Positions 603-17,332 of a stretch of DNA of 28,564 nucleotides are shown one piece after another (position 1 is the stretch's first letter; each line of letters opens with the position of its first letter). The stretch is from a virus. The translations under genes were made by a program, and so were the position numbers. The notes beneath the pieces were generated by a model. The model was not told where the DNA came from. It ran no database searches and saw only the letters and a program-made list of their open reading frames with translations. Location of the stretch: IMG/VR virus record IMGVR_UViG_3300017727_000109, positions 1 to 28,564 of that record. One strand, 5' to 3'.

Positions 603-3600
603 CTACTTCATTAGTTCGAGTAGTTTTTCTACTCTATCATTTTCATACTTCAAAGCTTTTATATCATCTTTGCTTAATCCTAAGCTGTCTAGCTTTCTTA
701 CTTGCTCAGCTTTACTAAGTTTTTTATACTTGTATTTGTCAGTTTCTTTCTTGTTAACTATATTTTTCTTACCACTGTTTTTAGCTATTATAAGATTTAT
801 CTTAGCGTCTTCAGACTTAGCTTTCTTTATAGTGTATTCTCCAAAGCCTAACGACTTTAACATTTTTACTTGCTGAGCTGAGTTAAGCTTTTTAAGTGTG
901 TCATAATCAGTAGAACCTTTAGCTTCTTTGTATAAAGATTTATTTTTATCTTCCTTAGCTTTTGTTTTCTGCTCATCAGTTAAAACAGGTGCAGTCTTTT
1001 TATCTTCTAACTGCCACTTAGGCCAACCACCTAACTGTGCTACACGCATCCATAACTCTGTATCTTCAGCTAAAGCACCTTCTATATTTTTTATTTTATA
1101 TAAAACTCTGTCTAAAGGAAAGTTAGTAGTAGCTGATATAACTTTAGCTAACGCTTCAAACGCAGGACTGTTTAATGAAAAGCCTTCATCAAGTATTTTT
1201 TGCCTACGTTTTTTACTATCAAAATGCCAAGCAGCTTGTTTTAATCTTGATATTTTAGAATTTATAGGTGGCGAAAACTGTGTAAGCTTCCATACTGAGT
1301 CTACATATTCGGGTCGTTGTCTTTTAGATCTTTCGTATATATCTAGTAAAAAGTTTTTACCAACAGAAACAGCAGCACCACCAATGCCTACACCTCTTAG
1401 AAGTGAGTCTAACATACCGTTAACAACGTTTAAGTATTTCTTTTCTTTCTTAGGATCTTCTTCTTCATCATCACCAAAGCCAAATATGTTAACAGCTTGC
1501 TGAAGAGCATTGAATATTATATTTTGAACAAAACCGTAGTATATTACTCTGCTTATATTAGACTTAGCATCACCTCTTCCGTTTATTAAATCTTGAATAG
1601 CTCTTTTCTGTAACCTAGCATATTGCATAGGTGTATTAGCGAAAGCTAATATTAATCTACCAGCGCTACTAGCTTGTTGTTGAGATATTCTACTTGGATC
1701 AGAAGACTGCTGAGACTCTTCAGCTACTTGTCTAAACTCTATTAATGCCTGAGCTTTAGCTTCGGCCTCTGTCATTCCTTGATTTTTAACTAAATCATTT
1801 ATTCTATTACGGTAGAAAGTAGCACCACCTGAAGCAATAGCAAAACTATCAGCATACTGCGTGGGTAAAAATCCTTTTTGTAATATATAATTAATAGCAG
1901 CTTTAGCTTTGTTCTTGCTAGTTGCAGCAGCATCAGCTATTTCACTTTCAGATATATTTAACTTCAAACCATTACGCCTGTCTATTAAATATTCAGAGTT
2001 CATTAGCTCCATAAAGTCAGACCAATATTGTTTTTGATTAGCAAACGCTTGGCCGGCTTTTAATGGGTTATTAAAGCTCCAGTTTATAAAGTTAATACTT
2101 GATATAGTTTGTAGCACTGCTGATCTTGTATTAAAGAACATTATAGTTCCTATAGATCCGTTGATGTAGTCAAGTATTCTATTCTCTAAAGCATTACCAC
2201 TTGTAACTCTATTCTTACCAGTTCTCATTCTGATTAATACGCCTTCTAAAGCTTCTCTATATTTAGTACCATATATAGCTTCTAACTTATTTAAATTTTC
2301 AGCAGTGTATATAGCATCAACTCTTTCTTGCCATTCGGCTAAATACTTAGATCTTTTCTCTGTGTTTATTAAATTAATTAAGTCAGTAGTTATAGTTCCA
2401 GCTAACCAGTTTTGATCTGGGCTAGCATAACCATCGCCTTTAGTTATGGATAATATCTGATCAGCAAACATAGATAACTTAGGATCTTTTTCTACTATAT
2501 CATTTAATTCTTTTAAATCTCTTTTAGATAACCCAGGAACATCATAACCCATCTTAGTAAATAAATGAACTCGTACAGCTTGCTCGTTTGTAAAACCACT
2601 ATCGTTCTTTTTTCTAAGATCTTTAGGTACATCTAATGATTTTTTCAACTGTTTAAAATCACCCATCAGCTGTATTCTAGCAGCAGATAAATTTTCTTGG
2701 GCTTTAGTATACGGGTCTAACAAGTTTTGCTTATACCAAGCCATCTGAGCATCTCCTTTACTGCCTTTAGTTAGGGTAGGATATATAAGACCTAAGAAAT
2801 CTTCAGCTGAATATGGTATAAAAAACTTAAACTTACCTTTACTTGCTCCTACTGTTTTAGCTTTAGCTGCTGAATACTCTTTAAATGATTCAACTCCTGT
2901 TGATTCTTCAAGAAGCATATTAAACTCTTCTCCAAGCTTTTTACTTTCTTTTATTCTAGCTTGTTGTATTTTAGACTTAACATCTATAACACTCAAAACA
3001 TCTTGTACTGCTTTAACGTTTTGATAAGCATCATCAGCAAAATAAAAATCATTATAACCTTCTGCTGCCTTGTCTAATATCCAATTTGCTTTAGCCTCAC
3101 CCGGTGATTTACCTAATCCAACTATATTTTCTCTTTTAAATTCTAAGCCTTCAGCTTTTAAGAACTCATATATAGCTGCTTCAGCATTAGGACCTCTTGC
3201 AGTTAATACAAATAAATCTTCATTACCTCTAGCGTCTTTTATAGTTTGAGCTACTTTAAATAAAGGACCACGACCACCTTCGGTAACGTTGTCAAAGTCA
3301 CTAAAGTCCATAACCCATCCATCTTCTATCATTTGAGCCGCATCAGTTGCGAACTTCTCTGCATTCATCTCTATTGACTCATCTCCTCTTACTGCAAAAA
3401 CTTTATTATTACTTGTTGCTAATGTATCATCAAAATCAAATACTCTTATTTTTTTGACAGGTCTATTTAAAGAGTTAGCTAATTTTAAAGCCTCATCTAT
3501 GCTAGCAGCTTTACTCAGAAGTTCATCCATACTTAGATCTTCATCTATGTCTAATACTTTAGACTCAGCAAGTTGTTTATTGGTAATTTTAATAGAATCA

Positions 3601-6600
3601 TTTTGAGTTTTAGCAAGACTTGGTTGACCATTATTTGGAAACTTAGTATAAGCAGCTAATTTTTTCTTTGCTTTACTTAATTCAATTTGTCCCTTAACAA
3701 CTTGTTCTATTAACTTATTTTGTAAACTAACAACTCCAGGAAATGTTTGAACTGTTTCAGCGACACCTAAACCAAACTTATCAGCGTATGATTGTCCTGT
3801 TCTAATATCTCTAACAGTATTTAAGTTTATACCAGCCATAGCCATACGTATTATAGGATTACTACCTATATACGCACCTTTAGGAAGTATGGCGGCGTAT
3901 TCAATATCTAAAAGGCTGTCGTCTTTTTTAGATAATATAGTTTGAGAAAAGTTTTTTCGTATATCAACCATTACAGCTTTAGGCTTATTCATTTTTATAG
4001 CTGCTAATATACTAGCTCCAACAACAGAAGCTGGTGGGTTGTGCTCTTCTCTGTATAGTTTTTCAGATCTTGTTTCTATTTTTTTACCAGCTTCAAAAGT
4101 ATCTGACACTCCTTCAAATGGAGCAGAAGCTTTTATAAGACCTCCAGTAGCTTGATAACTTTGTATTATAACCATACCAGCTACATCCATAGACATACCG
4201 TTATCAACAGCAAGAGCTAGTTGGTTAACAACATGATCTAACATGTCCATATTTATTTCAGACTGCGTTTTACCTGTGTCACTAACTTTTTTATCTAATC
4301 TTTGTGCTAAAGCTTCTTGACCTATAAACTTACCTTTTTTACTTATGCTTATTTGTCTATAACCATTTTCATCAAATGGAGAATCGTTTGCTGTTTCTAA
4401 TAGTTTTTTATAAGCTGGATCTTCCGTACTCCAAAATAATCTACCTGGTTTAGCAATCCATAAACTAGGATCAATACTTGCAATTTTACTTTTATATTTA
4501 TCTTTATTTTCTACAACTATTTTGTTTCTTTCATTAACTCTAACATCTCCAAATCTATAAAACTTATTATCTTTAGTTTTAAAATATTTACCAATGTTTT
4601 TAATACCTGCTTTTTTAGCTTGCCCGTAGTTTCTAAACTTATTATTTTTATCTCCATAAAAAGTTTGTCTACCACCACTACCCATAGCTCCAGCTTCTAT
4701 CACTGCCTTGTCTATAAAGCCTTGCTCAGCAGCTTTTAAAATTTGAGCTTGTAAAGCTTCTCTATTAGATTCATTTATAGCATCAGAGTTAAAATCTAAA
4801 TTTCTAGCTATCTCTCTTTTATCTCTCCACCCTGCTGCTTCTTGTAATTTTAATATCTGCTTATCATCAAATTTTTTAGCAAATAATAAATCAGGTCTTG
4901 TTTGAGTTTTTCTAGCTGATGTAGCTCTTTGTTGATCTGTATCACCTCTTTGAGCTCTAGTTTCTGGTAGCACGTCCTTAAACATCTTCTTACCAAACGC
5001 CTCTGCTAGTTTACCTTTTCTATTAGATATATTTTGCGGTGTCTGCTTAGTATAAAACTCTACAGTAGCATCTGCACCTGGGTCTAGTATATCATAAAGC
5101 ATGACACCTTGAGCTTCGTTTTCTACAAATGCCCTGCCTGAGTCTCTATATTTTCTTATGTCAGCTTGTGTAGTTAAACGCTTGTTAGGTTTAGTAAACA
5201 TTCTAGGCTTACCTTGTTTCATTAAACCTTTATCTAGTTCTATGAGGTATTTTAAATCAAGATCTCTTATGTTGTTATAGTTTTCTTTTATAAAAGTTTT
5301 ATAGTCTTGACCTTTTAGTACATTGTTTTTAACCCAGCTTTTTAATTCTTTACCAGATATTTGATCAACTTTAGTTCTGTATTTCTTATCATCTACAGTT
5401 GGGAGCTTGTCAACCATTGGTTGAGTAATTTCTTTGAATGATTTAACTTCTTGGTCAGTTAAGCCTTTTTCTTTACCTCTTATTATATTTCTTCTAAAAG
5501 TAGATCTTGGTTGTTTAGCTACCCCTCTATCCACTTCTTCTATAATATCTGTCGATGTATCTGCAATGTCAAACATTTGACCCTCGCTAGTAGGTTTATC
5601 AATACTACGAGCATCAGAATCTACTCTTGTAGCATATTCTTTTTTTACGTCTAATAAAGCTTTTTGAGCAATACCACCTAAACCTCTTTGATCTGCTTTA
5701 CCATACAAATAACTGAACAAACTTCTTCTGTTACCATCTACTACAGGTTTGAAGTTGTTTAAAGCTCTAAGCTGTAAGTTTTCTTTTATTTTTCTATTAA
5801 CCTCTTGTTTTATATTAGAATCTAAACCTTGTAAATTACTGTCTCTATTTATTAATTGGTTTATATAACTATTAAACTGAGAATTATTTTCTATGTTTTC
5901 AAAAGCATCTATAGCATCTTCACTGTTTTTAAAATCTTCATTGCTAGCTAGATCTTCTGTAATGTTTCTATCAAAAGCTTCAGACATAGATCTTGTGTCA
6001 GCTTTTATAGGTAAAGCAGCGGCTTGTTTAGTTTTAGTTTTAGTATCTGGTTTTATATTTATAACCGGAGTAGTATCTTGTTCTTTTATCTTCTTACCTT
6101 TCTCTCTTAATTTAGTATCAAACTTAACTTTACCTTGTGCTAACTTCTTTTGAGCTCTAGTTAATTTACCTCTACCTGTATTTCTAACATAATCATCAAG
6201 AACATCCATGATGTTATCTTCATTGATTTCTATTTCCATACCTAAGCCTTGGTAAAGTCTTCTAAAACCAGCTTGTACTTCGCTTCCTACTGTTGTACCT
6301 TTTTTGAAATATCCTCTTTTCTTTAGCTGTATATAGTAAGTCATTATCTCTTCTGCCACGGCCTCAGAGTCATACTTATCATCTTCCTTATACTTTTTAA
6401 TCTGTTGGTCTATAACGTCAGCAGCTTTTGGATCTATTTCACGCATCTTTTTTCTCAACGAGTCGGCTAAACCAAATACAACATCTTTGTTCTTAGGATC
6501 GTTCAATGCTATCTCTAGGAAGTTATGGCCTGCCTCATGCTCTAAAACCCCCTTAGAAGCCGTCTCTGACATTAATATTATACCCTCGTCTTTTAAATAA

Positions 6601-9600
6601 ACCCCTTCAGGGTCTAATAAATCTTCAGAATTTAAATTATATTTTTCAGCTATCTCATCTACATTATCATCGTTAAATACTTCTACCTTAGCACTATTAA
6701 GTAGCTCTTCAGTTTCTTCTTTAGACAAATCTTGATCTTTAGATAAGTTCTTAACCTTTTCTAGCTTAACTATTCTTAATTGCTTTTCAGTAAAAGCTAT
6801 TTGCTCTTCTTGAGTTAATTCTTTTACTTTTTCATTTTGAGGATTATCAGATATATCTTTAATTTTAGCATCTATAGCTTCTATTTTTTTATCTATACGG
6901 CCAGTAGTACCTTTAGCTAAATTCTCTTTTTGGTTATTAAGCTTTTCTTTTTCTTTTAACAAAGATGATATTTGAAATTGAGCCGTTCCTTTTAAATCTG
7001 GATCTATCTTGTTGTATAAATCAAACTCTTTCTGTAGTTTAAATTTATCAGAATTAAAATCTTCTTGCGTGTAAATTTCTCCATTTTCATTTTCAACACC
7101 TATTTGTTCTTGCTTCATTTCAATAGCAGCAGTCAAAGCACTTGCATCTCTAGCAGTATTTGCTAAATTCTCTAAGAATTTATCATTTTCAAGTCTTTCA
7201 GCAAATGTAGTTTCTCTTTCATAATCTGTAAGTACATTATCTGTAGTTATCAAAGACTGAAAAGTACCACCAGCATTGCCTGATAAAAATGAAACACCAG
7301 CCATATGTGACATTTCTTTTTCAAAGTTTTCAGAGCTATAGTTAGGTAATTGAAAATTAACTTTATTATCTGTTAAAATATTAAAAGTCTCATCTAGTCC
7401 ATAACTTATACCAGTTTGAAAAGTCTCATCTGCTAACTCACTTAAACCGGCTGTTGTTACTCTACCAAATTTACTAATACATTTAGCAACTAAATCACCA
7501 CACTCTTTCTGAATTGCTATTTGAACATCTCGTGCCGTAACATTACCAGTTAATTTTCTTAATACACTGTTGGTTATTTTTTCTGATATTTGAGCAGCAG
7601 GATTAAACTTACCTTTTAATATTCTTCCAGTTATATAAGAAAAGAAACCTTCTGAAGTCGCTTTACCTAAAGAATACATTTTTTGTTTTGTAGGTGAAAA
7701 AACCTGTTCAAACTGTTTAGTAGCCTCAGCTCTGCTTATTCCTTGCTCTTTCATAGCTTTAGCAACAAATTCATTTTCCATACTAGCAACGCTAGCTGTA
7801 GTTTCTGTTAAAGAATTAAAGAAATAACCACCTGCTAATCCCGTTATTGGAGCTCCTAAAGTAGCGCCAGCCATTTGAGCAAAAGAATTTAACGTACCAC
7901 CAACTAAACTATCAGCAAAACTTTTACTAAATTCAGGATCATTACCTTGAAGTGTAAGCTGTTTGGCTATAGCATCAGTTGTACTTTTTAAAGAAGCTTT
8001 TTGAGATCTAAAAGTATTTAAATAGCTTTTATATTTTGATTCACTTATACCACCAAGTTCATATCCTATTTTATTTATACCCTCAGCTAAACTCATATAT
8101 GCTGTATAAACACCTGTTCTTGTTCCAGCAAATTGAGTTGCTAGAGTATTATATAGCTCTTTAACAACACTACCTTTACCCTCGTATTTGTCTAACATTT
8201 TTTGTATTCTATCACTAGACTGTAGTTCTAAATTTCTAAAAGATGAGCTAGCAGCGCTATGTAATCTATAAGAATCATATAGCGTGTTAATATTTTGCTT
8301 AAGTTCTTCTTGGCTTACACCTATTTCTTCTGCCTGATCTTTTAAAGATTTTAAATTAGCTTGGTTAGAGTCATAAAAACTTTTATAATCATTAGATAGT
8401 TTATTTTGTTTCTGTATATTTTTGTTATATTTATCTACATCATCCTCATAATCTTTAACAAAATTCTTTTCCCATTTTTCGTATTCTTTAACAAGATTAT
8501 CTTTTAAGCTAGGGTTTTCTATTATTGCTTTTTTAACTTGTTCTCTTTTGTTTTCTATTTTTTCTTTACTACTATCTATAGATTCTTTAAGCTTTTTGTT
8601 TTCTCCTTCTATCGAATTTATTTTAGAGTTTACATTTTCAAACTCATTAAGCAAGTTTTTGTTCTCATCATATATATCAGACTCTAATTTAGCAGAGTTT
8701 CTTACTATTTTTTTAAGACCAGAAACTTGATCCTCAACTTCGTTTATATTATTTTTTAACTCAGCTTTTATTTGTTTTTGTTTATTTTTAATAGCTGGGT
8801 CTACTTCTACACCTGGAGCAAGGTTAGGCGATGTGTTATATTCTGTTGAATTTTTATCTATAAAATTAGTAAAACCCTCAATGTCTTTTGCTTCACTTAA
8901 ATTTAATTCATAAGCTACGCCTTCATTTATTAATCTACCATTAGTAATAACTCCATCCTCTATACCATTAGCCTCAGCTGTAGCTTTAATATCTAACTTA
9001 CCATCTTTAGTAAACACAGGGTTTTTAAAAACATATATAGTATTTCCTTCATGTGTACTTCCTAGCCCATGGTTTATATATATTTTATTTATATCTCTAC
9101 TAACATTTACAGGATCCATTGTTTCATCAAACATATAAGCATCCTTAGACTTATTGCCAAAAAAAGTTGTTCTCTCTCTCAACTTATACTCTCCGTTTTC
9201 GTCTTTTTTAAGCATATAAGCTTTTCTATTGGCCCAAGCAGTAGGACTTGGCTTATCTTTGTCAATAATAGTTAGCTCCTCAAATTTAGTTTTATTATCT
9301 AAAGCCTTAACTTTGTCTTCTTGAGCATCTATAACTTGATCTTGTAAATCTTCTAGCTCTAATAATAATTCTTTTTTCTTTTCAGGATCTTGCTCTAGCT
9401 TTATTTCTTTTTTCTTAGCCTCTATCTTTGGCTTTACATTTTTTATTATATTATCAAATTTTTGAGGATCTGCTTGAACAGCATCTGACTTTGCTGTGAT
9501 TTCAAATTCTGCAAGTCTTTCTGCATCAGGATCAGGCTCTGAAACCTGCGATTCTTCAGTGAAAATTCTATCGTAGTCTTCGTTTGTTATATATACAGGT

Positions 9601-10181
9601 GTGTCTTGCACTAAATTATCATTGTCTTTATCTTTGTACGTAGCAACGTAATAGTAACCCTTGTTTCTAGTAGTTCTTCCTTTTTCTCTAGGATCTTCAC
9701 CTGGAAGTTCAATTACTTTTACTTCATCTTCTGTATTATAAGGTACATCTATCTTTTTTAAAGATACTAATTCACCTTTTGAATCATTTATATCCTGCTG
9801 TGTTCTACTTAAATTATCTGGATCTTCTTGACTTCTATTAAATACTTTACTTAGATCTTCTTGTTTAAGTTTAGAAACATCTAGTTCTTCTACAACTTCA
9901 TAGTCACCTTCATTTATTTCATTGCTGCCAGTTACAGTTACAACGCTTGTCTTTTTTGTTTTAGCTCTACCTAACTTATCCGGAGATAACTCCGATAAAG
10001 AATCTTCCGAGCTGGACTCCCCATCTTTTGGATCCGTAGCTGGGGACTGAGTCTTCGGATCCGACTTCTTTTCCACCTCTACAGCTTCATCTGCCTCAGC
10101 GTCTGCTGGTGGAATAAAATCTATTTCTTCTTTAGTTTCTTCTTTAACTATAGCGTCTTGTGGTGGTATAAATTCACTCAT
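603..10181 (-). CDS. Giant 3,192-residue multidomain virion or polyvalent protein
   Basis: The largest gene here runs from ATG at 10181 to TAG at 603-605. Visible parts in order: acidic disordered N-terminus with two FIPPxDA motifs (residues 4-28); coiled coils at about 237-294 and 460-640; a Gly/Ala-rich hydrophobic segment at about 759-795; coiled coil at about 1017-1144; HEAGH zinc-peptidase motif at 1215-1219 with candidate third ligand E1273 or E1277; a long unassigned middle; HAD-phosphatase motifs D2249-x-D2251-x-T2253, T2327 and D2383-D2384; a helical, partly hydrophobic region at about 2660-3035; and two related 35-residue motifs at 3097-3131 and 3153-3192. As last gene of the tail block, after gp13-, gp14- and gp15-like positions, it is best read as an ejected internal protein in the place of T7 gp16. 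The domain mix resembles the large polyvalent proteins described by Iyer, Burroughs and Aravind. No lysozyme or transglycosylase motif was seen. Confidence 0.85.
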   Translation of the reverse strand: MSEFIPPQDAIVKEETKEEIDFIPPADAEADEAVEVEKKSDPKTQSPATDPKDGESSSEDSLSELSPDKLGRAKTKKTSVVTVTGSNEINEGDYEVVEELDVSKLKQEDLSKVFNRSQEDPDNLSRTQQDINDSKGELVSLKKIDVPYNTEDEVKVIELPGEDPREKGRTTRNKGYYYVATYKDKDNDNLVQDTPVYITNEDYDRIFTEESQVSEPDPDAERLAEFEITAKSDAVQADPQKFDNIIKNVKPKIEAKKKEIKLEQDPEKKKELLLELEDLQDQVIDAQEDKVKALDNKTKFEELTIIDKDKPSPTAWANRKAYMLKKDENGEYKLRERTTFFGNKSKDAYMFDETMDPVNVSRDINKIYINHGLGSTHEGNTIYVFKNPVFTKDGKLDIKATAEANGIEDGVITNGRLINEGVAYELNLSEAKDIEGFTNFIDKNSTEYNTSPNLAPGVEVDPAIKNKQKQIKAELKNNINEVEDQVSGLKKIVRNSAKLESDIYDENKNLLNEFENVNSKINSIEGENKKLKESIDSSKEKIENKREQVKKAIIENPSLKDNLVKEYEKWEKNFVKDYEDDVDKYNKNIQKQNKLSNDYKSFYDSNQANLKSLKDQAEEIGVSQEELKQNINTLYDSYRLHSAASSSFRNLELQSSDRIQKMLDKYEGKGSVVKELYNTLATQFAGTRTGVYTAYMSLAEGINKIGYELGGISESKYKSYLNTFRSQKASLKSTTDAIAKQLTLQGNDPEFSKSFADSLVGGTLNSFAQMAGATLGAPITGLAGGYFFNSLTETTASVASMENEFVAKAMKEQGISRAEATKQFEQVFSPTKQKMYSLGKATSEGFFSYITGRILKGKFNPAAQISEKITNSVLRKLTGNVTARDVQIAIQKECGDLVAKCISKFGRVTTAGLSELADETFQTGISYGLDETFNILTDNKVNFQLPNYSSENFEKEMSHMAGVSFLSGNAGGTFQSLITTDNVLTDYERETTFAERLENDKFLENLANTARDASALTAAIEMKQEQIGVENENGEIYTQEDFNSDKFKLQKEFDLYNKIDPDLKGTAQFQISSLLKEKEKLNNQKENLAKGTTGRIDKKIEAIDAKIKDISDNPQNEKVKELTQEEQIAFTEKQLRIVKLEKVKNLSKDQDLSKEETEELLNSAKVEVFNDDNVDEIAEKYNLNSEDLLDPEGVYLKDEGIILMSETASKGVLEHEAGHNFLEIALNDPKNKDVVFGLADSLRKKMREIDPKAADVIDQQIKKYKEDDKYDSEAVAEEIMTYYIQLKKRGYFKKGTTVGSEVQAGFRRLYQGLGMEIEINEDNIMDVLDDYVRNTGRGKLTRAQKKLAQGKVKFDTKLREKGKKIKEQDTTPVINIKPDTKTKTKQAAALPIKADTRSMSEAFDRNITEDLASNEDFKNSEDAIDAFENIENNSQFNSYINQLINRDSNLQGLDSNIKQEVNRKIKENLQLRALNNFKPVVDGNRRSLFSYLYGKADQRGLGGIAQKALLDVKKEYATRVDSDARSIDKPTSEGQMFDIADTSTDIIEEVDRGVAKQPRSTFRRNIIRGKEKGLTDQEVKSFKEITQPMVDKLPTVDDKKYRTKVDQISGKELKSWVKNNVLKGQDYKTFIKENYNNIRDLDLKYLIELDKGLMKQGKPRMFTKPNKRLTTQADIRKYRDSGRAFVENEAQGVMLYDILDPGADATVEFYTKQTPQNISNRKGKLAEAFGKKMFKDVLPETRAQRGDTDQQRATSARKTQTRPDLLFAKKFDDKQILKLQEAAGWRDKREIARNLDFNSDAINESNREALQAQILKAAEQGFIDKAVIEAGAMGSGGRQTFYGDKNNKFRNYGQAKKAGIKNIGKYFKTKDNKFYRFGDVRVNERNKIVVENKDKYKSKIASIDPSLWIAKPGRLFWSTEDPAYKKLLETANDSPFDENGYRQISISKKGKFIGQEALAQRLDKKVSDTGKTQSEINMDMLDHVVNQLALAVDNGMSMDVAGMVIIQSYQATGGLIKASAPFEGVSDTFEAGKKIETRSEKLYREEHNPPASVVGASILAAIKMNKPKAVMVDIRKNFSQTILSKKDDSLLDIEYAAILPKGAYIGSNPIIRMAMAGINLNTVRDIRTGQSYADKFGLGVAETVQTFPGVVSLQNKLIEQVVKGQIELSKAKKKLAAYTKFPNNGQPSLAKTQNDSIKITNKQLAESKVLDIDEDLSMDELLSKAASIDEALKLANSLNRPVKKIRVFDFDDTLATSNNKVFAVRGDESIEMNAEKFATDAAQMIEDGWVMDFSDFDNVTEGGRGPLFKVAQTIKDARGNEDLFVLTARGPNAEAAIYEFLKAEGLEFKRENIVGLGKSPGEAKANWILDKAAEGYNDFYFADDAYQNVKAVQDVLSVIDVKSKIQQARIKESKKLGEEFNMLLEESTGVESFKEYSAAKAKTVGASKGKFKFFIPYSAEDFLGLIYPTLTKGSKGDAQMAWYKQNLLDPYTKAQENLSAARIQLMGDFKQLKKSLDVPKDLRKKNDSGFTNEQAVRVHLFTKMGYDVPGLSKRDLKELNDIVEKDPKLSMFADQILSITKGDGYASPDQNWLAGTITTDLINLINTEKRSKYLAEWQERVDAIYTAENLNKLEAIYGTKYREALEGVLIRMRTGKNRVTSGNALENRILDYINGSIGTIMFFNTRSAVLQTISSINFINWSFNNPLKAGQAFANQKQYWSDFMELMNSEYLIDRRNGLKLNISESEIADAAATSKNKAKAAINYILQKGFLPTQYADSFAIASGGATFYRNRINDLVKNQGMTEAEAKAQALIEFRQVAEESQQSSDPSRISQQQASSAGRLILAFANTPMQYARLQKRAIQDLINGRGDAKSNISRVIYYGFVQNIIFNALQQAVNIFGFGDDEEEDPKKEKKYLNVVNGMLDSLLRGVGIGGAAVSVGKNFLLDIYERSKRQRPEYVDSVWKLTQFSPPINSKISRLKQAAWHFDSKKRRQKILDEGFSLNSPAFEALAKVISATTNFPLDRVLYKIKNIEGALAEDTELWMRVAQLGGWPKWQLEDKKTAPVLTDEQKTKAKEDKNKSLYKEAKGSTDYDTLKKLNSAQQVKMLKSLGFGEYTIKKAKSEDAKINLIIAKNSGKKNIVNKKETDKYKYKKLSKAEQVRKLDSLGLSKDDIKALKYENDRVEKLLELMK
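606..893 (-). repeat. Duplicated C-terminal helical motif in the giant protein
   Basis: Two copies share a KKLxxAxQVxxLxSLG core followed by an IKxxKxE segment: residues 3097-3131 (bases 789-893) and 3153-3192 (bases 606-725). By hand alignment 14 of 35 positions are identical. Each copy looks like two short helices with a glycine turn, broadly like SAP-type or other helix-turn-helix nucleic-acid binding folds. The link between copies is rich in lysine. Confidence 0.7.
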
Positions 10182-10189
10182 TATAATAT

Positions 10190-11488
10190 TTACTTTTTAT
10201 TAAAATCTGTATATTTTTTAGTATATTCTACGCCATTAGGACCAACTAATGATTCACCTGGTTTCAATGTATTCCATTGCTTGTTAAATTCTTTTTGAGT
10301 TAAAGGTTTGTCTTCGCCATCTGCAGGTTGGTTATCTTTAGGTTTAGTATTTAACTCTACACCTTCTGCATTAGCATTATCTTCCAATGCTCTAGTAGAT
10401 AAGTAGTTTAACATCACATCGTACTGTTTTTTATATAGTGGAAACTCTTTATCACCAGGTACTGGTACACTGTTCCTACCAGCAAACCATTCAACAGATA
10501 CATCTTCGTCTTCGCCATCAAAATCTTTATAACCTCTACCTCCATTCATTACATCCTCCCATATACTCTCACCTTCCAAACGTATTAAATCTGTAAACTG
10601 ACCTTGAGGCAGCCCTGTAGACTTATTAACAGGACCTATCATAGCATTTTTTAATTGAGTCTGCTGATCTAAAGTCATAGTAGTTATCTCTACATCATCA
10701 CCATTTTTATTTTGTCTAGTTACAGGTGTAGTAAACAAACTAGTAAATTGATTCTCATCATCTTTCATGTAGTTAGTAAACGCTGTTTGCAAAGGTTTTT
10801 CAACGTCTGCTTCATATTTTAAATAAGGATTTTTGTTATTAGCAAAAGCTTTATTAAACTCTCCAACGTTTAATATTGCACCATTCTCAGGATCTTTAAG
10901 TATTATGCTATCTCCATCTTGTATTATGTCTATGTTATCCCCATTGACTATTTTAGTTATGATTTGCATTTGCTCTGGCGGAGCGCCTGTAATACTTAGT
11001 TGTGGGCCATCTGGATCGTTTGAAGCTTGCTCGATAGCAGCAGCTATTTTTTGCATTCTAGGCACAGCATCTCCATATACATTAACTAGATTTTTTATTT
11101 TAGCTAAATCTTGCCTACCTAGCTGCTCATCCACCATAGTGCCATTATTAAGATGACCTTGTATTTCACTATACCTATCTATTAAGTCATGAAAGAAAAC
11201 GTCAGACTTCTTGTTGAAATCTTCGTAACCTAAACTATAGCTAGCAACATCATTGTATAAATTCTGCTGATCTCTTTTTTGGCTTTTGGTAAATTCTTTT
11301 AAAGCTTCTTGTTTAGAACCTATAGAATTAATAACGCCTTGAGCTAAAGCATTTGCGTTTGTCATCGCCCTATTTCTTCTTTGCTGTTCTATAGCTTGTT
11401 GACGTTTTCTGCTTTCTGACATAGCAGAAGTATTTATGCCAGGACTACTCTGTTGTGATCCTGGTCCTTGTGGATTAGCGTAACTCAT
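10190..11488 (-). CDS. Putative internal virion protein, 432 residues
   Basis: The gene starts eleven bases after the 187-residue gene ends and stops eight bases before the giant gene. The N-terminal 45 residues are rich in Q, S and R and look disordered; the next 100 or so are helical; the rest is mixed and acidic. The last 39 residues hold FNKQWNTLKPGESLVGPNGV followed by YTKK, a short C-terminal module I associate with phage virion proteins. I recognise no enzyme motif. By position it corresponds to T7 gene 15, one of the internal core proteins ejected into the host. That match rests on gene order rather than on sequence. The leader on the minus strand is A-rich with no Shine-Dalgarno sequence. 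Confidence 0.6.
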   Translation of the reverse strand: MSYANPQGPGSQQSSPGINTSAMSESRKRQQAIEQQRRNRAMTNANALAQGVINSIGSKQEALKEFTKSQKRDQQNLYNDVASYSLGYEDFNKKSDVFFHDLIDRYSEIQGHLNNGTMVDEQLGRQDLAKIKNLVNVYGDAVPRMQKIAAAIEQASNDPDGPQLSITGAPPEQMQIITKIVNGDNIDIIQDGDSIILKDPENGAILNVGEFNKAFANNKNPYLKYEADVEKPLQTAFTNYMKDDENQFTSLFTTPVTRQNKNGDDVEITTMTLDQQTQLKNAMIGPVNKSTGLPQGQFTDLIRLEGESIWEDVMNGGRGYKDFDGEDEDVSVEWFAGRNSVPVPGDKEFPLYKKQYDVMLNYLSTRALEDNANAEGVELNTKPKDNQPADGEDKPLTQKEFNKQWNTLKPGESLVGPNGVEYTKKYTDFNKK

Positions 11489-11499
11489 ATTTTTCTTTT

Positions 11500-12063
11500 T
11501 TATGTGCTTACAACCTCGGCGTTAGTGAATGCATCCATAGAGCTTTCAAACTGTCTGTCAAGAGCGTCTAGTTGGTTAGATGCTCTACTAATATCTGAGT
11601 TATCTCTAGCTTCTTGAGCAGCAAATCTTTGCTGTTCACCCTCGGCTTTCGTTTTAGCTAGATCTTGAGCTCCTTGAGCGGCAGCTTTTTGATTAGAAGC
11701 TTCTTGTTGTTGTAGAGATGCAGCAATACCTTTTTTACTTTGAAGTGCAGCTTGAGCTAAAGCAGTAGCACCACCAGCACCAGCACCACTAGCTCTCATA
11801 GCATCAAGAGTGTTTGCTAAAGCTATATCTGATTGCTCAGCTTGAAACTCAGCAGCTTTATTTGCAACTCCTAGATTAGCCATTTCATTAGTTAGACCTG
11901 AATAAGGATTAACTATAGCCTGTCTATTTTTAAGCAAATTTTTCATTTGTCTTTCTTTTATTCTTCTAGCTTTATTAAAGTTTGCCTTTATTTTGTCTTG
12001 CTCGTCTCTTTCTGCGTTTTCTTTTTCAATTAACGCTGCCTCTTGTGATGATGATGTTCCCAT
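11500..12063 (-). CDS. Putative internal virion protein (gp14-like by position), 187 residues
   Basis: An alanine- and glutamine-rich, almost wholly helical protein. Residues 1-50 are charged. Residues 52-90 hold the motif NPYSGLTNEMANLGVANKAA. Residues 93-112 form a glycine/alanine patch, ASGAGAGGATALAQAALQSK, and the rest is a long amphipathic helix ending in a short acidic tail. This pattern, with the NPYSGL start and the GATALAQAAL patch, is one I recall from small internal proteins of marine phages. It fits T7 gp14 in size (about 190 residues) and place. T7 gp14 forms a channel in the outer membrane during ejection; the glycine/alanine patch could do likewise, but that is inference. The start lies one base after the preceding stop. 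Confidence 0.6.
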   Translation of the reverse strand: MGTSSSQEAALIEKENAERDEQDKIKANFNKARRIKERQMKNLLKNRQAIVNPYSGLTNEMANLGVANKAAEFQAEQSDIALANTLDAMRASGAGAGGATALAQAALQSKKGIAASLQQQEASNQKAAAQGAQDLAKTKAEGEQQRFAAQEARDNSDISRASNQLDALDRQFESSMDAFTNAEVVST

Positions 12064-12064
12064 A

Positions 12065-12472
12065 CTATATTTGTTTTATTAAGTGACTATAATTAGTATC
12101 ACCTTCTTTAAATCCTATTTCTTGTAAATTACTTATATATTTTCTATTATTACCCCAAAAGAATAAAAACTTTCCATTATGTTTTTTCCAAACGTTTTCG
12201 CAAGCTATATTCAACAAATTAATAGCTTGTGATCTATCTTCCTGCTTGTAGTTTCTATCTGAAAGAGGCCACCCTAATGCACATACGCCTGAGTTAGTAG
12301 TATACATAAACACTGAAGCTATAGGTTTATTTTCTTTTTCTACTATTAAACCACCTGTACCATTATCAGGTAAAAATTCTTTACTAGGTATAAATTCAAA
12401 ATCCCATTGTTTCCACCATTTTACTAGTGTAGCCCAATCATTCTCTGTAAGTCTTCTTACGTTTAATTCCAT
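12065..12472 (-). CDS. GNAT-like acetyltransferase-fold protein (gp13-like by position)
   Basis: A 135-residue protein opening with VRRLTENDW, the typical first strand and helix of GNAT acetyltransferases. It continues with GGLIVEKENKPIASVFMYTT (40-59), the usual beta2-beta4 hairpin, and ends FWGNNRKYISNLQEIGFKEG (105-124), matching the last GNAT helix and strand. The acetyl-CoA loop (Q/RxxGxG/A) is not seen in the expected helix at about 76-92, which reads KQEDRSQAINLLN. The protein may have lost catalysis and kept the fold. T7 gp13, a virion assembly protein of about the same length, sits at the same place before gp14, and its relatives are often annotated as acetyltransferases. A structural role therefore seems more likely than host modification. 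Confidence 0.65.
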   Translation of the reverse strand: MELNVRRLTENDWATLVKWWKQWDFEFIPSKEFLPDNGTGGLIVEKENKPIASVFMYTTNSGVCALGWPLSDRNYKQEDRSQAINLLNIACENVWKKHNGKFLFFWGNNRKYISNLQEIGFKEGDTNYSHLIKQI

Positions 12473-12482
12473 TTAATTTAAT

Positions 12483-14132
12483 TTAATACGACGATATTAC
12501 ATAATTAGATCCAGAAGACCAAAGCTCTTTAGCTCCGCCTAGATCAGTTGTATCGTCTGTTTCTATTTTAACAGTGGCAAAATAGCCTTTAATACCTGTT
12601 ATATCAGCTCCATATATTACTTCACCAGCAGCTGCAGGTGAGTTAGATACTAGGTTAGCGACATATCTATTTTCTTTTCTAGCAAAACCAGTTCTTATTG
12701 TTTGACCAACAGGATCTGTATATAAACCCTCATCATAACTCAATATAGGTTTTGTAGTATCTCTGCTTTGTATAAAACTAGGATTACCAGCTACGTTAAC
12801 ATCTTGACCAGTAAAACCAGATTTAAAAGACTTCATCTCCCAGCCATTACTACCTTCGTAACTTATAGTTTTAAAATTCTTAACAGTAGAAGGGTTAGGG
12901 TTTAATACAAATGTAACGTTAGATGTGGATCTAACACCATAAAACAAACCTCTATTATTAGCTACAGTTGTATCGTATTGTTGGTAAAGATCTGAATTTT
13001 GAGTTGTATATGTTTTATTTAAAACACTAAATAGTAAATTAGGTTTAAATGTTAAAAAACTTACCCAACCATTTATGCTTTCGTCAAAAGTGACTGTTTG
13101 ATAATCAGAAGTAGTAGATGCTTGATTAGTTGTTTTTTGTAAAGATATAACATAGTTTTTATTATGTATATCCCAACCACCTATTACTCTACCTCTAGTC
13201 TTATATTCAAAAATACATTGGCTAGTTATAGCTGGTGAAAACAATTTAGAATATAACACTGTATAATTACCGCCAGATTCTGTTACGTTTGTTATATAAC
13301 CGCCAGTTTGACCTTGTATAGACATACCTTCTGATGGAGGTATATTATTAGCGGCGGGAGTAACAACTATCGCAGTAGTGGTTATAGCTCCTCCACTTAC
13401 AACAGCGCTAGTAGTTGTTTTAGTTTCAAATTCATCTTTTACCTCAGCTAAATTATCTCTAAACCAATCCATCATACCATACATGCTTATTTCAGTCAAG
13501 CCATCGTTTGATAATCTCATCACTGCATTTCTGTTTTTATCAGAAAAATACTTCCTATAGTTATATATTGCAAATGATTCTGGATTTTTACTTATTCCAT
13601 ACTCACCTTTATAAGGAACAAACTGTCCTATAACAGCTGCACCTGCTTGTGTTTGTGTACCACTTTCAGTAGTATATATAGTATCTTTGTCTATTAAAGC
13701 TCTATGTATTCTGTTTTCTTGAAACACTATTAAGTTGGTGTCTTCTGCATAAGTTTTTTGTATGCTACCATGCTCTGGATCTAGAGACTTAGTTATACTA
13801 TCTGCTACTGAGAATACGTTAGTTTGGTTTATGCCAGTTCTTGAATTATAAATACCAGAGTATATAAGAGTATTTATTCTATTTTGCTGCAATGGGTATT
13901 GTTCATCTAAATAGGCTCTTACCCCTTTGTCAGTAGATGTATTATTAAAACCACCTCTTATTCTGCTTTCTTCTATGTAATAATTCCTAGTGCTAAAACT
14001 TAACGCTAAACCACCTGGATATGCTATACCAGGGTGTGATTTAGGAAAACCAGCAACGGTGTCTGCGTTTTGCGATTTCAAAGACTTTAACCAATATGAA
14101 TTAAAAAATTCTACTTCTATTATTTTTGACAT
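12483..14132 (-). CDS. Tail stabilisation protein, C-terminal-half homologue (549 residues)
   Basis: The sequence is beta-rich with motifs I recall from tail stabilisation proteins of crAss-like and marine podoviruses: RINTLIYSGIYNSRTGIN, GEYGISKNPESFAIYNYRKY, LTEISMYGMMDWF and a closing segment with GIKGYFATVKI and ELWSSGSNYVISSY. These proteins close the channel below the portal and hold the packaged DNA. It starts five bases after the 1,064-residue gene ends but in a different frame, so the two are separate proteins that probably assemble together. Residues about 233-312, straight after the WFRDNL motif, form an insertion resembling four modules in the larger partner. No signal peptide or enzyme motif is seen. 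T7 gene 12 (lower tail tube) occupies a comparable place. Confidence 0.72.
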   Translation of the reverse strand: MSKIIEVEFFNSYWLKSLKSQNADTVAGFPKSHPGIAYPGGLALSFSTRNYYIEESRIRGGFNNTSTDKGVRAYLDEQYPLQQNRINTLIYSGIYNSRTGINQTNVFSVADSITKSLDPEHGSIQKTYAEDTNLIVFQENRIHRALIDKDTIYTTESGTQTQAGAAVIGQFVPYKGEYGISKNPESFAIYNYRKYFSDKNRNAVMRLSNDGLTEISMYGMMDWFRDNLAEVKDEFETKTTTSAVVSGGAITTTAIVVTPAANNIPPSEGMSIQGQTGGYITNVTESGGNYTVLYSKLFSPAITSQCIFEYKTRGRVIGGWDIHNKNYVISLQKTTNQASTTSDYQTVTFDESINGWVSFLTFKPNLLFSVLNKTYTTQNSDLYQQYDTTVANNRGLFYGVRSTSNVTFVLNPNPSTVKNFKTISYEGSNGWEMKSFKSGFTGQDVNVAGNPSFIQSRDTTKPILSYDEGLYTDPVGQTIRTGFARKENRYVANLVSNSPAAAGEVIYGADITGIKGYFATVKIETDDTTDLGGAKELWSSGSNYVISSY

Positions 14133-14137
14133 ATTAT

Positions 14138-17100
14138 TTAATCTGGAGATGATGGTGCTTCAGGCTGTTGTTCTGATGAGTTTGGACCAGCTTCTATAGC
14201 ATCGTTTAATTCTGAGATTAATCCACTTGTAGAAGTTTCATAAAATATATTTAATCTAGATTCAGGTGGTTTTATCTCTAATACACTAAAGTTTAAAGGA
14301 TCACTAGGCTTGCCACCTATAGTTAATCCATCAGCTAAAAGTATTGCAGTTGGCGGGTTAGTTTGTGCTTGAAATAAACCAGGCGATGATATAGGCGCTA
14401 CATCAGCGGTATCTCCACTAGCGAGAGTTGTCAACTGCTGTAGCCCAAGATCTGTTATTTTACCTATAGTATTAGCTGTAGCAAATTTAGTTCCTAAATA
14501 TCTTTGGCTGTTATAGCTTTTATTGTTAAAAACATAATCACCTCCTGTTACTCTAGGGTAAAGAACTACATCACTAGTTCTAAACTGCGTTTGCTCTGGT
14601 TGTACTTCTTCTAAATCTGCAGGTATTTTATTTACATTATCACTTATTAGTGTTGTATAAAAAGATTGATCACTTATATATGTTGACGAAGCTATTGAAG
14701 GTGTTTTTATTACTATAGCTTGATTAGCAGCTATTGTTATTGTTATATCTAAGTTTAATGTGTCAGTGCCTGTGACGCTAGTTACTTTAGCTGGTAAAGC
14801 ACTACCTGAAGGATTTGGCGGTATAGGAACTGTTACACCTTGGCCAGTTACTTCATCTCCAGCTTTAACACCAACTATATCTGATGGATCTGTAACAGTT
14901 ATGCTGTTAGTAGATATTGCCATACCGTTGTCAGAAGTTGCGTTATATGTTGCAGTTGTAGGCATAGAGCATATATTTGCTAGATAAGCGTTATAATATT
15001 CTTCAGCTTGTTGTTTAACTACTATCTTATAAGAATACCAACCAAGTTTATTTTCAGGACCATGTATTACTATATTCTTGTTAGGGTCTAAAGTAACATT
15101 AGCCGAAACAGTTATAGTGTTAGTGTTAGTATTTATTGCTATTATACTAACTATTGTACCTGCAGCATTTATTATATCTCCAACAGCTATATTTTGATCT
15201 ATACTACTAACAACTACAGTAGGACTATCTACAACAGCATTAGTTACTAGCGCATTATATATGCCGCTTTTGTATAAACCTGGATAACCAGGAGCATTAT
15301 CACTGTTAATAATTGAACTTGGTATTTTTTCGTTGAATAATACTTTCAAAGAATCACCAAACCAACCTTTACCTAATGCTCCTATAGGTATGCCTTTAGA
15401 CTCTGCGTCTGTTCTGGAAGGATAAGGATGAAAAACTGTAGAACCATCAAAAGTTTCAGTACTACCACTTTGAGCATATTGAAAGCTACTAAGAGAAGAC
15501 AACACTACGTCTGATTGTCTACCATATCTATCTGCTAAAACTATACCTAATTGATATGTTCTATTTTGTTTAAGTGTATGGTTAGGCGTTGATACTGTAG
15601 TATACGATGTATTTACATTACTTACAGGATATTTAGGGCTAGCGCTTACACTATAGTTTATATTTTCAGGAGGAGAGTGTTTGTCTATTATATTTCCATA
15701 TATTATTCTATTACCAACAGAAGACTGTGACATTGCTCTAATAGGTACTTTGTCAAATACTCTAGTTATTTCCGCAGCTGGTAAAGTTCTAAAAGGTTTT
15801 CTTGACTGATAAGTGTAATTGTAAATATAAGTAGAGTTAGAAGTTATAGACGCGTCAGAAACAGGTATTGTTTCTAAAACTTGTATAGCTAAACCATCAG
15901 ACTCTTTGTACAAAATGTCTATCTCTGACACTTTTAATTTATCTACTAACTGATTAACTAAATAAGGTGTGTTTATTCTTATAGTAACATCGTCTACTTT
16001 GTTTTCAAAAAAGCTTATTATAGTAGAAGCACCAATAGCTTCTTCTTGATTAGAGTATTCTGTAGGTTCATTAGCAGTTGGCTCTGATATTATATAACCA
16101 TCTTGTTTTGGTATAAATGCAGGTTGAGTAAATGGAGATATAACAGAATATTCACCATCATCAAATTTAAACCTATAAGCAAATCTAACAAACTTATCTG
16201 TTAAAAGTTCTTTGTCACCTGGCCATGTGCTAGTGTAGTTTGGATTAGGATATGCAAACTGTAATATATCTCCAGCAAAAACACTATTAGGACTTAACGT
16301 TATATTTTTATTAACAGTAACTGTATTAGAACCTGGCTGTAGCCCTACAGTTAAAACTTCTTCATCTATTTTACTTGGGCAAGTCACTTGCATTCCAGCT
16401 ATCAAAGATTGACTAGTTGTAGGATCTGTAAAAGTAATATCCCAATTACTGCCATTTGCAGCTATGCTGTCAAATTTTGCACTGCTACTCGTTGTTATAA
16501 ATTTGTCAGTTCTATTTTGAGAAGTTGGATATATAAATATAAAATCATTTGTTCCAGCGCTCAGTTGCTGAGATACCACGAAGTCTCCAACGCCAGAACC
16601 TGTTGTAGCATAGTTAACAGAAATTACAAACACTGGTTTAGCTACTATTTCAGCAAAGCTAGTAGGCGTTAGTATCTGCATGCCAGCTCTAAGAGTAGTA
16701 GGGTTTGCAGTAGATCTAGTACAATTTACAGTATTATTAGTAGTAACACCTGTTAAAGATAAAGTGTCATACGTAAATGGAGCTGAGTAAGGATAATATT
16801 TAGCTACAGATATTTGGTCTTCAGTGGTATAGTAGCCACTACTAGTTATAGCTTTTTTTACATTTATTTTTCTAGGTTGATTTCTGTTGTCAGTCCAAAA
16901 TAAAAGATCTTCTACTAAGTTAATTCCAAATATCGGATGAGTTTTAGAAAAGTTTAAAAATTTACCCTGTACGAGTATTTGATTAGTATTATTACTTAAG
17001 TTAGACATTAATATGTAACAAGCCGCACCATATGGTGCAACATTGCTCAACGTGCCGTCTGAAAAGTCTGTATAATTAGTAGCTATAAAAAAAGCTCTAT

Positions 17101-17332
17101 TGTTAGTATCATCAGCTAAATAACCTATTATTTCTAAATTATCTACATTACTTAAACCAAAATTAGTAAATAATTTATTACCTAGTACGTTTTCTAAAGC
17201 GCCAACATCTTCACCTTCAGATCTGTTTACGTTAACGTTCTGAGCATCTCTATATTCACCATTGGACAATAACCTATCATCTAGGTCTTTGTTCATTTTA
17301 GACTTGACAAAGTTGTTTTTTACTTCAGCCAT
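14138..17332 (-). CDS. Tail stabilisation protein, N-terminal-half homologue (1,064 residues)
   Basis: The opening MNKDLDDRLLSNGEYRDAQN with a following EGEDVGALENVLGN is the hallmark start of phage stabilisation proteins in crAss-like and related podoviruses. NQPRKINVKKA (about residue 150) and the end FYETSTSGLISELN also fit that family. The role is expected at the tail base, sealing the portal after packaging. The protein is almost all beta-structure, with four repeated modules at about 190-270, 277-362, 691-760 and 795-877, each built round an IxxGMxV-like turn followed by alternating hydrophobic residues. The end (EQQPEAPSSPD) is disordered. The partner protein follows five bases later. 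The start lies two bases after the preceding stop, consistent with coupling. Confidence 0.75.
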   Translation of the reverse strand: MAEVKNNFVKSKMNKDLDDRLLSNGEYRDAQNVNVNRSEGEDVGALENVLGNKLFTNFGLSNVDNLEIIGYLADDTNNRAFFIATNYTDFSDGTLSNVAPYGAACYILMSNLSNNTNQILVQGKFLNFSKTHPIFGINLVEDLLFWTDNRNQPRKINVKKAITSSGYYTTEDQISVAKYYPYSAPFTYDTLSLTGVTTNNTVNCTRSTANPTTLRAGMQILTPTSFAEIVAKPVFVISVNYATTGSGVGDFVVSQQLSAGTNDFIFIYPTSQNRTDKFITTSSSAKFDSIAANGSNWDITFTDPTTSQSLIAGMQVTCPSKIDEEVLTVGLQPGSNTVTVNKNITLSPNSVFAGDILQFAYPNPNYTSTWPGDKELLTDKFVRFAYRFKFDDGEYSVISPFTQPAFIPKQDGYIISEPTANEPTEYSNQEEAIGASTIISFFENKVDDVTIRINTPYLVNQLVDKLKVSEIDILYKESDGLAIQVLETIPVSDASITSNSTYIYNYTYQSRKPFRTLPAAEITRVFDKVPIRAMSQSSVGNRIIYGNIIDKHSPPENINYSVSASPKYPVSNVNTSYTTVSTPNHTLKQNRTYQLGIVLADRYGRQSDVVLSSLSSFQYAQSGSTETFDGSTVFHPYPSRTDAESKGIPIGALGKGWFGDSLKVLFNEKIPSSIINSDNAPGYPGLYKSGIYNALVTNAVVDSPTVVVSSIDQNIAVGDIINAAGTIVSIIAINTNTNTITVSANVTLDPNKNIVIHGPENKLGWYSYKIVVKQQAEEYYNAYLANICSMPTTATYNATSDNGMAISTNSITVTDPSDIVGVKAGDEVTGQGVTVPIPPNPSGSALPAKVTSVTGTDTLNLDITITIAANQAIVIKTPSIASSTYISDQSFYTTLISDNVNKIPADLEEVQPEQTQFRTSDVVLYPRVTGGDYVFNNKSYNSQRYLGTKFATANTIGKITDLGLQQLTTLASGDTADVAPISSPGLFQAQTNPPTAILLADGLTIGGKPSDPLNFSVLEIKPPESRLNIFYETSTSGLISELNDAIEAGPNSSEQQPEAPSSPD

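Follow-up and report, generated by a model that had tools for sequence, protein, structure and literature searches.

A single gene on the minus strand (603-10181, ATG start) occupies 33.5% of the window, as we call the whole 28,564-base virus record analysed here, and its 3,192-aa product, which carries predicted enzymes, is probably the largest of three ejection proteins (187, 432 and 3,192 aa) of a Bacteroidota short-tailed phage. The coordinates, the length and the share of about one third given in the initial annotation were correct, the strand being minus. The giant is the final gene of a co-directional virion block, whose minus-strand order starts with proteins of 197 aa and 91 aa, followed by the terminase, the portal, a probable scaffold, the capsid protein and small proteins; next come two tail-ring-like proteins, the muzzle as a pair of genes, an acetyltransferase-like protein of 135 aa, the 187-aa and 432-aa proteins and the giant itself. 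Gene order and family matches uphold the internal virion position that had been claimed for it at the end of the tail block. A plus-strand gene ending at 318, convergent with the giant, is read as the putative end of a ribonucleotide reductase gene.

Judged from its sequence, the window comes from a phage with a short tail whose relatives include Cellulophaga phi38:1/phi40:1 and the Flavobacterium elemo phages. By capsid and terminase it has matches in the elemo phages, in Maribacter phage Panino, in MW202828 and in Cellulophaga phages, the last of these in the phi38:1 group and, weakly and by the capsid, in the phi18:3 group. A profile of the C-terminal core of the giant was found in at least 576 IMG/VR contigs; 5 of the 12 core-bearing genome-bin contigs were labelled Bacteroidota, the remaining bins being mixed and possibly containing stray contigs. 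Of 130 giant-bearing loci that we read, 117 were 5'-complete and 109 complete, the complete giants ranging from 2,113 to 3,678 aa. Searches of the giant against other databases returned little: no match when residues 200-3192 were compared by tblastn with phage records, weak hits only for the C-terminal 965 residues against the same records, and no useful match of the whole giant in Pfam and NCBIfam. Likewise, hhalign of the core against the elemo, MW202828, phi38:1, Panino and phi19:3 giants gave no match, and scanning with the giants of MW202828 and Gundel brought in no further relatives. The Panino giant (L044:31690-37179) is annotated 'tRNA methyltransferase' and has no HEXXH or DFDDT-type motif; in the MW202828 giant (L042:741-12320, 3,859 aa), HEFGH occurs twice, at residues 1615 and 2500.

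Upstream of the giant, the crAss-type muzzle consists of an N-terminal part (14138-17332, minus) and a C-terminal part in its own gene (12483-14132, minus), identified by profile comparison and by Pfam crAss_MUZ and crAss_MUZ_C, both above their cut-offs. In the isolates the muzzle is one protein; here it corresponds to two genes, the first resembling its N-terminal and the second its C-terminal part. The 135-aa acetyltransferase-like gene (12065-12472, minus) lies within the virion block; 41 loci have a homologue of it upstream of the giant, and the MW202828 gene at this position is annotated as an acetyltransferase subunit. It is followed by the 187-aa gene (11500-12063, minus), a candidate small ejection protein, and by the 432-aa gene directly upstream of the giant (10190-11488, minus), a candidate medium ejection protein. 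The 187-aa protein is profile-similar to phrog_13764, the virion protein family of phi38:1 gp99, and matches by profile both phi38:1 gp99 (88%) and its Gundel counterpart (93.8%). A homologue of it lies upstream of the giant in 113 of the 130 loci, and muzzle-C in 102. The giant thus comes third in a small-medium-giant run, as in T7 gp14-15-16, N4 gp52-51-50 and phi40:1 gp99-100-101, and the earlier positional comparison with T7 gp16 holds. The gene order of the window recurs in isolates, N4, T7 and crAss001.

Packaging of such proteins is documented in a distant relative. In the phi40:1 record, gp097-gp101 are annotated from 'experimental MS/MS proteomics analysis', and gp101 (1,691 aa) lies at the same place as the window giant. 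No direct similarity was detectable between gp101 and the window protein; the two are linked stepwise via Gundel and phi19:3, by different segments. The window core matches the giant of the Tenacibaculum phage Gundel (hhalign 95.5%, E 1e-8), and the phi19:3 giant matches by tblastn both the Gundel giant (E 1e-9) and the phi38:1/phi40:1 giants (E 1e-13). With synteny and intermediates as its link to gp101, the window giant is a well-supported candidate for packaging in the virion. The phi38:1 giant, near-identical to phi40:1 gp101, contains no HEXXH or DFDDT-type motif; consequently, the MS/MS annotation does not place enzyme domains in the virion.

Cysteine content favours ejection of the giant independently of gene order. 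N4-like vRNAPs are devoid of cysteine, which has been explained as a way to avoid disulfides during tail passage (PMC3915230). Near-zero cysteine extends across 603-12063 (minus), that is, the giant and the two preceding genes, and likewise characterizes the ejected proteins of T7, P22, N4 and crAss001. There are 2 cysteines in the giant and none in the products of those two genes; the terminase has 7 in 741 residues. Across 119 giants of more than 2,000 aa we counted 28 cysteines in 339,639 residues (0.08 per 1000), with none at all in 104; homologues of the 187-aa and 432-aa proteins have 0.25 and 0.16 per 1000, and the muzzle parts 2.0 and 5.9. Among the reference proteins, compared by hand, the ejected or expected-ejected set (T7 gp6.7 and gp14-16; P22 gp7, 16 and 20; N4 gp50-52; crAss001 gp45, 46, 47 and 49) has 6 cysteines in 13,018 residues (0.46 per 1000) versus 87 in 10,328 (8.4 per 1000) for other virion proteins of T7, P22 and crAss001, the two classes being what we take them to be from general knowledge and the cited papers. 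Low cysteine is not specific to ejection, T7 scaffold gp9 also having none. The signature therefore supports ejection but falls short of proof, because the classes were assigned in this way and scaffold proteins may lack cysteine. From these combined comparisons we infer that the giant enters the host by ejection.

The HEAGH zinc-peptidase motif pointed out in the initial annotation (6525-6539, minus; residues 1215-1219) is real, and lies in a predicted zincin metallopeptidase domain (6192-6812, minus; residues about 1124-1330) with H1215, H1219 and E1278 as predicted Zn ligands. Of the 117 5'-complete relatives, 110 have HEXXH upstream of the core and 7 lack it, whereas shuffling predicts 0.5; the motif is consequently not due to chance. 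The candidate third ligand, E1278 (6348-6350, minus), is identical in 118 of 118 aligned segments, which were selected on HEXXH and not on E1278, the next-best column reaching 90%. One iterated profile takes in 109 of 114 zincin segments and matches the giants of elemo (93.9%, E 1.6e-7) and Gundel (79.9%). In structure, the modelled region weakly resembles zincins, namely anthrax lethal factor chains including 4dv8 (Z about 5) and also collagenase; 4dv8 appears as an HHpred match where the polyvalent-protein paper treats such peptidases (PMC5512222). It further resembles residues 2159-2375 of N4 vRNAP (9pnt, Z 3.5), a domain with a conserved HExxH (PMC12633501). Zincin and core profiles found no sequence match in N4 gp50. 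The polyvalent-type arrangement of HEXXH on one helix and a Glu on the next is found here, with E1278 invariant and helices and strands in the model. As for the checks proposed at the outset, the search for Pfam LPD and MPTase-PolyVal families, carried out with HMMER only, matched neither the window protein nor the relatives' segments scanned, so that the predicted peptidase rests on motif, conservation and fold; structure prediction of the motif regions recovered a HAD fold and, weakly, a zincin fold. On these sequence features, we consider the predicted zincin to be genuine.

The HAD phosphatase domain (2970-3464, minus; residues about 2240-2404) carries DFDDT (residues 2249-2253), LTAR and FADD, and HAD motifs I, II and IV are all present in 110 of 127 giants. 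It scores above the Pfam cut-off for DUF2608, and 27 of 36 members match phrog_415 'polynucleotide kinase'. The best fold match of its model is the T4 Pnkp phosphatase (Z 10.5, 2.5 A over 120 residues), remaining HAD phosphatases giving Z 7-9, and no kinase domain was recognised beside it. The claim of a HAD phosphatase is upheld by these matches together with the motifs, and the domain is a probable 3'-phosphatase. Upstream lies a domain that we call EH (3627-4301, minus; residues about 1961-2185), modelled fairly confidently (pLDDT mostly 70-92). In the 97 homologues found among 122 giants, E2046-H2047 are conserved in 98%, R2112 in 90% and D2088 in 75%; no match was found in isolate giants. 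Because these polar residues are conserved, we read the EH domain as a putative enzyme with a probable further activity.

A coiled-coil stretch (8262-8795, minus; residues about 463-640) has a heptad score above that of 99.9% of shuffled windows over residues about 469-639, and a sub-threshold Pfam match to the coiled-coil family COG6_N at residues 498-563, in support of the coiled coils noted previously. The supposed hydrophobic Gly/Ala segment (7782-7949, minus; residues about 745-800) is indeed Gly/Ala-rich; it is only weakly hydrophobic and contains no clear transmembrane helix, since no 19-residue window reaches a mean Kyte-Doolittle value of 1.1. The conserved C-terminal core (948-3539, minus; residues 2215-3078) comprises the HAD domain and a large helical region, the latter borne out in the structure model as initially described. 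This core is common to the relatives read; the match stops at about residue 3058-3078, beyond which only some relatives share the sequence. The giant ends in two HeH-like helical repeats (606-893, minus; residues about 3097-3132 and 3153-3188; sub-threshold Pfam HeH), identical at 14 of 36 residues, a value reached by 0 of 200 shuffles. Structure was predicted in two models of 1,073 and 1,200 residues with middling confidence (mean pLDDT 66 and 64), both lying beyond residue 1019. Profiles of the core and middle region had no match among PDB sequences, and neither the helical core nor the EH domain gave a fold match when searched inside the long models only, from which new folds do not follow. 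A search for polymerase-type DxDxD/DxDxG patterns in the window protein returned two matches only, at unremarkable places, and Pfam scans of the window protein and the relatives' segments found no RNA polymerase, transglycosylase or lysozyme family. No Pfam model covering the core was found, the HAD part excepted; hundreds of marine phage contigs carry this core.

Conservation differs along the gene. In comparisons with relatives L003, L002 and L004, identity amounts to 88, 73 and 64% for the HAD part and to 26, 51 and 71% for the zincin; the EH part gives only a short 31% match with L004. Since HAD and zincin identities rank these relatives in opposite order, segments upstream of the core appear to have been exchanged by recombination inside the gene. 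Rough dN/dS estimates, with synonymous sites near saturation, are about 0.12 for the helical core and 0.14-0.25 for the HAD part, values indicating that both are under purifying selection.

We propose that the giant is packed in the virion and would be pushed, at least partly unfolded, through the portal and tail before the DNA, in a conduit probably formed or lined by the smaller partners and by the coiled-coil and helical parts. The zincin would probably cut its own polypeptide, in the cell or in the capsid, releasing domains, of which the HAD domain may act on 3'-phosphate ends or nucleotides and the EH domain probably provides a further activity. All three settings of such cleavage have been discussed for polyvalent peptidases: prior to packaging, inside the head and inside the cell (PMC5512222). 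The enzymes would presumably act before phage gene expression.

There is another reading, somewhat unlikely in our estimate, by which the zincin is a maturation protease that cuts the giant or the scaffold during virion assembly and only the structural part enters the cell. Pre-packaging action has been proposed for P1 DdrB (PMC5512222), and scans of the window proteins recognised no separate prohead protease family; however, this reading leaves the HAD and EH domains and the cysteine depletion of the whole chain unexplained, and N4 vRNAP, likewise equipped with such a domain, enters the virion uncut. It is rather improbable that the role of the giant is structural alone, in ejection or as a conduit, its zincin and HAD folds being kept without catalytic importance. 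In favour of this, the helical core is the most conserved part, and the motifs are missing from the counterparts of the giant in phi38:1, phi19:3 and Panino, but the exact retention of HEXXH and E1278 in an otherwise highly diverged domain, together with the frequent HAD motifs, argues for selection on catalysis.

Least credible to us is that the giant stays in the particle as an internal core or tail component. The available record does concern virion presence only, and in a distant relative only, yet the cysteine frequency of the giants fits that of ejected and not that of other virion proteins, and the giant stands third in its triplet. Ejection with enzymes remains our preferred reading, and a bolder extension of it may be put forward tentatively, as somewhat unlikely: a pre-expression toolkit made of a Cys-free carrier, a near-constant zincin and a constant helical core with domains swapped by recombination between them, in which the zincin would free the Pnkp-like phosphatase and EH domain, these mending or disarming host-defence damage to nucleic acid ends before phage expression.

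Such enzymes could work in the host before any viral gene switches on, and the giant would add a probable 3'-phosphatase and a conserved uncharacterised domain to those that phages may bring into the cell on entry. Cysteine depletion offers a sequence-level approach to the question whether a large phage protein is ejected, an approach open to testing in other phages, and the cultured Cellulophaga, Flavobacterium and Tenacibaculum phage relatives open the way to virion and entry experiments.

Several known systems resemble the window giant in part. Within Pervagoviridae, gp101 of phi40:1/phi38:1 is likewise the last gene of the virion block, after virion proteins of roughly 200 aa and roughly 550 aa; it is cysteine-free in phi38:1 and recorded in virions by MS/MS in phi40:1, but it is shorter, carries neither motif and is similar through intermediates only. 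The Flavobacterium elemo giant (Elemovirus; 3,694 aa, 'structural protein') shares position, a homologous zincin and the lack of cysteine, whereas its core has no detectable similarity and its record notes DUF3293. In crAss001, the cargo proteins gp45-gp50 are encoded after the muzzle gene and have very low cysteine in the four read, but include RNA-polymerase-related giants; they are virion cargo for which ejection has been proposed (PMC10172136). T7 gp16 also follows small and medium internal proteins and lacks cysteine; it has 1,318 aa and an annotated endolysin domain, none being recognised in the window giant, where no peptidoglycan-cleaving Pfam family was found. N4 gp50 (Schitoviridae) is third in a small-medium-giant set, has no cysteine and, as in the window giant, combines an HExxH zincin with a large C-terminal region that is helical and of unknown fold (PMC12633501). 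Unlike the window giant it has an RNA polymerase domain and no similarity to our profiles; Pfam scans of the giant found no polymerase family, the structure models lying beyond residue 1019. Polyvalent proteins, as described by Iyer et al. 2017 (PMC5512222), similarly join unrelated enzyme domains in one chain near virion genes and use an HEXXH zincin with a downstream Glu, whereas no Pfam LPD or MPTase-PolyVal model matches the giant; the words HAD and phosphatase do not occur in the main text of that paper. The giant itself is encoded among virion genes and bears at least two unrelated predicted enzyme domains, the zincin and the HAD phosphatase, both recognised from motif, conservation and fold. 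By analogy, it would work like an ejection protein of the N4-vRNAP or T7-gp16 type and as a variant of the polyvalent proteins.
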